DNA from: Thermococcus siculi
GTDB lineage: Archaea; Methanobacteriota_B; Thermococci; Thermococcales; Thermococcaceae
Length of the DNA: 64,000 nucleotides
Direction of reading: 5' to 3'
NCBI RefSeq assembly: GCF_002214505.1
Contig: NZ_CP015103.1
Coordinates: 1,550,001 to 1,614,000 of the forward strand
Made by a program: the position numbers and the translations under genes
The notes under the pieces: model-generated
What the model was told of the DNA's origin: nothing
Database searches by the model: none
What the model saw: the letters and a program-made list of their open reading frames with translations, nothing else
Part shown: positions 60,270 through 61,501 of the stretch, in pieces
Layout: every line of letters starts with the position of its first letter
Position numbering within the stretch: position 1 is the first letter of the stretch

Positions 60270-60548
60270 CTAAGTTTGTTCTTTGAATTTTTCATCAATC
60301 AAGGCAGATGTTCCAGTGATGAAGAATAACCCCCCTATTATCCAAACTGCGTCGGAGTACAAGGGAAGTGTTTCCCACGCATTTTTAAGCAAATGTCCAA
60401 ACAGTCCATAAGTTAAGATGGCTATTCCAACTGAGGCGGCTCTTGCGTACAAAAGAGTGTTTGATATCGGAGATAATATCCTCTTTGATATGAGATATAC
60501 TGCCACTGCGAGGGAAGCTCCGAAAAAGAATAAAATCAGGGTACTCAT
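60270..60548 (-). CDS. small three-helix membrane protein, possible immunity protein
   Basis: This 92-residue protein has three hydrophobic segments (around 2-24, 35-56 and 66-86) and a short charged tail. The start MSTLILFF overlaps the stop of the Cys-rich protein gene as ATGA, with GGGGGGATATGCC upstream. Such a gene directly following a candidate bacteriocin often encodes immunity or export; the sequence itself shows only that it is a membrane protein. Not recognised otherwise. Confidence 0.7.
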   Translation of the reverse strand: MSTLILFFFGASLAVAVYLISKRILSPISNTLLYARAASVGIAILTYGLFGHLLKNAWETLPLYSDAVWIIGGLFFITGTSALIDEKFKEQT

Positions 60549-61279
60549 GGCATATCCCCCCAATCTATGCAATATGATCCAATCTCACCACAGCATCCAG
60601 AGCTCAATGCTAGGCATATTGGACAGGATACGGCCACACATGCGGCGACACAGGGAGGTGAACCGCCACATGTCACTAAACATGCTACTCCTGCTAGTCC
60701 ACAACAATCCGCAAGACAATCTGAAGTAAAGTGGTAGTAACAGCAGTACTCGTTGCAGCTTGCGAAGTAACCGCAATCATCACCTGAAGTGCACTCATGG
60801 GAGCAGCTGCTAGTGGGGGTATACGCCCCATTTGTAGTCATTGCCTTGGTTTTAATCGTGGCATTTCCGATATTGTCCCCTTGTACTTCCAGCAAAAAGC
60901 TTCTCACTTTTACTCCCTGCACTGGCTTTGAGAACTCGTAGAGTGCTATGACGTGCTTCTTGTCTTTGAGTGGGATTCCCATGGCGAGCATTGTTGTTTT
61001 CTCTCCATTGTACTCAATAACATGTTTAGCTACTTTTACGTGAGAATAATCAACATCCCACGGCTTTGCCAGCTTCCAGAAGTCCCTGCTAGTTGCGAGT
61101 TTGAAGAAGATGTGGGCTTTGGACCAGTTTTCTAGGGTTCTGCTCACTGGTTTTGTAACTGCAAATGGGTTCACGCAACCCTTGACTTCTGGATACTTGG
61201 GATAGCTGACCACGTAGGCACCGTACGCTCCTACAATGAGGAGGGCCACAAATACGGCCAGCAGTGCACGCCTCCGCAT
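60545..61279 (-). CDS. secreted protein with C-terminal Cys-rich domain, halocin C8-like precursor candidate
   Basis: This 244-residue protein has a basic N-terminus and a signal or anchor helix (RRRALLAVFVALLIVGAYGA), then a soluble domain of about 130 residues. The last 87 residues hold 18 Cys, in segments such as CNEYCCYY, CLADCCGLAGVACLV, CVAVSCPIC and GCCGEIGSYC. Halocin C8 of haloarchaea is made as a precursor of similar length whose hydrophobic Cys-rich C-terminus is released as the antimicrobial peptide while the N-terminal part gives immunity. The layout here is the same, though Cys number differs. A TTATATATG box is about 50 bases upstream, with GGGGGGGGT before the ATG at 61279. 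Confidence 0.7.
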   Translation of the reverse strand: MRRRALLAVFVALLIVGAYGAYVVSYPKYPEVKGCVNPFAVTKPVSRTLENWSKAHIFFKLATSRDFWKLAKPWDVDYSHVKVAKHVIEYNGEKTTMLAMGIPLKDKKHVIALYEFSKPVQGVKVRSFLLEVQGDNIGNATIKTKAMTTNGAYTPTSSCSHECTSGDDCGYFASCNEYCCYYHFTSDCLADCCGLAGVACLVTCGGSPPCVAACVAVSCPICLALSSGCCGEIGSYCIDWGDMP

Positions 61280-61501
61280 CGACCCCCCCCAACGGAGATC
61301 TTTTGCATTACATTTGTTTTCATTCATCATATATAACACTTTCGCTTGAAAAATGTTAAGGATGATCAAGTTTTAATTAGCTTATTGAAGAATTTAGTAA
61401 TATGTGACTCGTTCTTTATTTCGAGCACCATCAAAAACCTCAAAAGACTTTTATACATCCTACTGAAACCACCAAATGAACAACTACGAACAGCGGTGCT
61501 C

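Follow-up and report, generated by a model that had tools for sequence, protein, structure and literature searches.

What does a gene for a cysteine-rich precursor do when a small membrane protein gene overlaps its stop codon in a hyperthermophilic archaeon? In the window (the whole stretch of 64,000 nucleotides of Thermococcus siculi DNA analysed here), the original prediction took such a pair for an archaeocin on the plan of halocin C8. To our knowledge, archaeocins come from haloarchaea and Sulfolobus, and our literature search found no paper on an archaeocin from Thermococcales or on this cassette. Makarova and co-workers (mBio 2019) reportedly surveyed archaeal polymorphic toxins and archaeocins and also listed candidate analogous systems; that survey lay outside our search, and the cassette family may already be a listed candidate there. 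We consider it probable (about 0.77) that the locus is a two-gene archaeocin-like polymorphic toxin-immunity cassette, with a cysteine-rich tail and a cognate membrane immunity protein, aimed at competing Thermococcaceae. If true, it would be a little-known weapon system of hyperthermophiles, open to testing.

The locus in the window

The features of the locus are as follows:

60545..61279, minus strand: precursor gene, 244 aa, ATG start; hydrophobic helix at the N-terminus, followed by a conserved domain and a tail rich in Cys
61205..61279, minus strand: residues 1-25, RRR followed by a hydrophobic stretch predicted to be helical at 2-25; putative signal peptide or anchor in the membrane
60806..61204, minus strand: residues 26-158, conserved, mostly beta domain and linker; identity between loci drops at about residue 128; invariant Asn150-Gly151
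60548..60805, minus strand: residues 159-244, predicted toxin tail with 18 Cys, made up of a shared module with six Cys (159-180) and a variable one with 12 (181-244)
60270..60548, minus strand: gene for a membrane protein of 92 aa, predicted to confer immunity; its start and the precursor stop overlap (ATGA)
61328..61345, minus strand: promoter-like element GCGAAAGTGTTATATATG (BRE and TATA), conserved, upstream of the precursor (29 upstream regions, by eye)
61280..61295, minus strand: conserved Shine-Dalgarno region CCGTTGGGGGGGGTCG (upstream comparison of 29 homologues)

The predicted precursor of 244 residues with signal helix, central domain and 18-Cys tail was borne out, except that the tail, counted from Cys159, has 86 residues and not 87; it holds 18 of the 19 Cys of the precursor, the remaining one being at residue 35. 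The ATG of the membrane gene at 60548 overlaps the precursor TGA as ATGA and the gene ends at 60270, so the overlap with the stop stood; the three helices claimed for its product did not fully stand, as a hydropathy scan gave two strong membrane segments in the 92 aa protein, with a weaker third segment in mid-protein being plausible and three helices possible. A 100-aa version of the membrane protein with a TTG start was judged less likely than the ATG version, and a 274-aa precursor from a longer TTG start was rejected because the upstream conservation looks like a promoter and ribosome site and the frame is not kept. Indeed, the upstream regions of all 29 homologues, compared by eye, carry a BRE/TATA-like element together with a strong site for ribosome binding. 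The homologues, these conserved upstream signals and purifying selection between close pairs confirm that precursor and membrane gene are real, beyond chance. The GC content of the cassette region (0.42-0.48) is below that of its surroundings. Two plus-strand genes flank the cassette, one for an aldehyde ferredoxin oxidoreductase and one for a ThiS/MoaD-like protein.

The Asn-Gly pair at 60827-60832 of the window (precursor residues 150-151) is invariant in all 29 homologues. As this bond is heat-labile, such invariance is unusual in a hyperthermophile protein. The pair could be a site of self-cleavage or processing, but it is placed between two predicted strands, so that a hairpin turn is simpler and probably the explanation, and the cleavage site was set aside.

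Tail and membrane protein vary together

We compared 29 intact loci, in which the membrane ORF was picked by hand as the hydrophobic ORF after the precursor. The first ~123-128 residues of the precursors align well across these loci, the tails split into many types, and a small membrane ORF follows each tail type. The pairwise normalised similarity of the variable tail module followed that of the membrane protein (r = 0.81, 29 loci), whereas the N-domain followed neither the tail module (r = 0.06) nor the membrane protein (r = 0.09), and the partial Mantel correlation of membrane protein and tail given the N-domain was 0.81 (p = 0.0001, 9999 permutations). Linkage alone would couple the N-domain to the tail too, and no such coupling was found. 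Moreover, 15 unrelated membrane-protein families (phmmer grouping, two orphan-defined relatives included) accompany one N-domain family. The covariation has exceptions: the tail of L009 resembles the tails of L027 and L030 while the partners are unrelated, and likewise for L005 and L006. The membrane genes encode 54-136 aa with 1-4 predicted membrane segments, mostly 3-4, and the variable tail modules are hydrophobic, acidic or neutral.

The check proposed with the original prediction, whether tails vary over a conserved N-terminal part and in step with the membrane gene, was thus strongly positive. Two features of polymorphic toxins are present in these loci: a constant N-terminal region with an exchangeable C-terminal domain, and a downstream gene, here the putative immunity gene, matched to the tail type. 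Immunity most likely resides in this separate membrane gene and not in the N-domain of the precursor, because the membrane protein covaries with the tail and the N-domain does not.

Block exchange and insertion sites

Judged from sequence identity along two pairs of loci, tail and membrane gene are swapped as one block. Between G036 and G012, which belong to different genera, identity is ~80-86% over most of tldD and 91-100% over the promoter and the start of the N-domain, falls below ~50% from ~400 bases into the precursor gene (about codon 128) through the tail and the membrane gene, and is back to 90% once the cupin gene beyond the cassette is reached. G017 and G039, whose contexts differ, match over only ~400 bases of N-domain and ribosome site (92%).

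In two genera, one of them the window's, the usual site adjoins tldD (with tldE), which is transcribed divergently, and in the genus of the window a cupin gene comes after the site; about 15 cassette-free genomes have a tldD-cupin gap of ~130 bases. In the genome of the window this site is vacant and the cassette lies at another place, and many other cassettes also lie away from tldD, which itself occurs in 88 of 94 genomes, cassette present or not. At L046 (3095-5859), and at the equivalent positions of other loci, tldE-tldD is divergent from the cassette at the usual site. E. coli uses TldD/E to trim the leader of microcin B17 (PMC5810440), and the adjacency possibly reflects a maturation link, or possibly a conserved address only. 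We set it aside as evidence for a maturation role and treat TldD/E as no more than a lead, since almost all of these genomes have tldD and many cassettes lie elsewhere. In another genome, a tail remnant and membrane genes (L125/L149; G015, near position 425000 of the contig) adjoin a ThiS-like gene, as the window cassette does, and this neighbourhood is a possible second insertion address.

Orphan membrane genes and arrays

Occupied sites carry one to several membrane genes of types known elsewhere as partners, behind an active pair or a truncated precursor (arrays in G059, G014, G016, G023, G013 and G037, and at another site in G060). Where a precursor is truncated, what is left of the tail end mostly fits the type of the next membrane gene (L052, L072, L073, L074, L075, L082, L104, L106, L125, L126). 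A concatenated membrane-protein query matched in 50 of 94 genomes, ten of which have no precursor match (G004, G008, G013, G015, G021, G023, G037, G064, G072, G093); a more sensitive profile search found short precursor remnants in G015, G023 and G072. Among 23 sampled loci of three membrane-protein families (some of them active pairs), 21 frames were open, with pN/pS of 0.41-0.45 among the open ones, and the orphan membrane genes appear to be mostly intact and under purifying selection. A further feature of polymorphic toxins, orphan immunity genes or displaced toxin remnants, is therefore found in these genomes. The Thermococcaceae arrays fit the pattern described for V. cholerae, where effectors are displaced and orphan immunity arrays occur (PMC5361080).

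Cysteines, predicted structure and database searches

The Cys count is even in 29 of 29 intact tails (14, 16, 18 or 20), which argues for disulphides; by a rough estimate, the chance of all-even tails if parity were random per type is about 2 to the minus 15. Two Cys present in L027 are missing from the related L030, which has lost them together. A six-Cys module at the tail start is common to nearly all types, and a type-specific module comes after it. AlphaFold modelled the whole precursor with moderate scores (pLDDT 78, pTM 0.72) as an N-terminal helix, a beta-rich domain and a tail of strand, helices and strand, and the tail alone as strand-helix-helix-strand (pTM 0.44); Foldseek gave no credible match of the whole model or the tail to a known fold.

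The precursor had no significant match in Pfam, NCBIfam, PHROGs or PADLOC, and the membrane proteins had a single sub-threshold match in the family databases (DUF2065 on L005, 20 residues). A PDB sequence search returned omwaprin and a vicilin peptide alone (E 0.17-0.39), which were taken as chance or convergent Cys spacing. Apart from its hydrophobic N-terminal helix, the N-terminal domain matched no known trafficking or secretion system in Pfam, NCBIfam, PHROG or PDB. Nor did the loci compared reveal a dedicated transporter or protease gene travelling with the cassette, and the cassette proteins resembled neither a toxin family nor a fold or export machine already known. The TIGR04449 model of the halocin C8 domain, which does match in control genomes, did not hit the window precursor even with E values up to 10 allowed, nor anything in its genome, and it is absent from the matches listed when the 29 homologues are searched with an E limit of 1. 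Comparisons by hhalign of precursor or mature peptide with halocin C8-like proteins gave probabilities of 0.2 and 0.1 percent; the halocin profiles comprise 3-4 sequences only, so that a very remote relationship is possible.

Alternative explanations

These searches bear on the halocin C8 plan of the original prediction, which placed immunity inside the precursor. The likeness is one of gross plan: an archaeal precursor with a signal, a middle domain and a hydrophobic Cys-rich C-terminal peptide, and a small downstream gene. In a true relative, the N-domain would be the immunity part released from the precursor, the tail the halocin C8-like peptide and the downstream gene an accessory, which we regard as very improbable, given that neither TIGR04449 nor hhalign (probability <1%) connected the two and that the N-domain does not covary with the tail. 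Moreover, the cassette precursor has a Sec-like helix where halocin C8 has a twin-arginine start, the cassette tails have 14-20 Cys, a shared six-Cys module and many types, and immunity most likely lies in a separate membrane protein. Model and profile searches did not detect membership of the cassette in the halocin C8 family. The halocin C8 part of the prediction was therefore dropped, and an archaeocin-like system, in keeping with the covariation of tail and membrane gene, was retained as the best reading.

A secreted or anchored N-terminus, strong diversification and co-exchange with a membrane gene would also suit a surface antigen or adhesin varying to escape viruses, with the membrane protein as its dedicated anchor, chaperone or export partner and hence changing jointly. 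Thermococcales do have other hypervariable surface modules, the VARTIG (PMC8416519), which resemble the cassette in being secreted, restricted to Thermococcales and variable at the C-terminus; however, VARTIG are large Ig-domain proteins and the cassette is two genes with a membrane partner, and the 244-aa precursor had no Ig family match and does not belong to them. We think a surface antigen unlikely, since the partner should vanish with it, yet the membrane genes persist alone, mostly intact, under purifying selection and in multi-type arrays. An intracellular toxin-antitoxin pair, or a metal or redox protein with a Cys-rich tail, would account for a Cys-rich protein with a small adjoining gene, but hardly for the N-terminal hydrophobic helix, the membrane-embedded partner, the even Cys parity of all tails, the metal-site spacing that is not fixed, or one domain with 15 partner families, and we give this explanation almost no weight.

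Proposed mechanism and relation to known systems

For the toxin-immunity cassette, we infer secretion, cleavage, toxicity, membrane target and immunity from the sequences compared. The N-terminal helix would send the precursor to the membrane or outside, the conserved domain would be a common carrier for export and folding, and the Cys-rich tail would fold as a compact disulphide-bonded helical hairpin. If release occurs, as we assume, the tail would probably be freed by proteolysis near residues 150-158 and could then damage the membrane of competing Thermococcaceae; membrane damage is suggested because the tail is hydrophobic and disulphide-rich and the partner is membrane-embedded. The small membrane protein from the overlapping gene would shield the producing cell from the type of tail it makes, specificity would switch when tail and membrane gene are replaced as one block, and old membrane genes retained as an array would protect against relatives still making the old toxin. 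The predicted archaeocin-like function is well supported by the evolutionary evidence. More doubtful, and offered tentatively, is a self-contained kin-discrimination weapon with ~15 tail-immunity specificities, disulphide-packed membrane-active peptides of new fold working above 80 C, orphan arrays beside tldD-tldE, and a TldD/E protease that may release the peptide as for microcin B17.

Covariation, block exchange and orphan arrays are the signature by which bacterial antagonistic systems are recognised. CDI, Rhs and T6SS effectors share with the cassette a constant N-terminal part, an exchangeable C-terminal toxin, a cognate immunity gene, orphan immunity arrays and block recombination, whereas the cassette precursor is small (about 240 aa), has a Cys-rich tail and no known delivery machine or toxin domain, and belongs to an archaeal hyperthermophile. 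Sulfolobicins are comparable as membrane-associated proteinaceous antimicrobials of thermophilic archaea (PMC4609331). They come from a different archaeal order and were compared by description. We know of no tail-immunity polymorphism in sulfolobicins. The cassette pattern makes archaeal kin competition directly testable, and the peptides would be unusually heat-stable disulphide-rich scaffolds with ready specificity variants and matching antidotes.

Distribution of the precursor family

Precursor matches occur in 42 of 94 Thermococcaceae genomes, ~30 of the 42 being apparently intact, and cover several genera and dozens of species at 41-82% identity. A profile search matched 48 of 115 genomes of the phylum, and outside Thermococcaceae gave nothing beyond two weak matches of ~40 residues. 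A wide scan of genome contigs, whose patterns reach close relatives only, had matches in Thermococcus or Thermococcaceae-type metagenome bins only. Plasmids, phages and viral contigs were searched and held no precursor relative, so nothing points to carriage by a plasmid or virus. In metagenome bins (L003/L032, L042, L043, L044), several contigs stop within or just beside the precursor gene, as would be expected if several cassette variants coexist within one population and break the assembly. In addition, an in-frame stop or frameshift, possibly a sequencing error, interrupts the precursor at L056 (G087), L004 (G066) and L050 (G029), and the broken precursors of L056 and L004 still have a membrane gene downstream.
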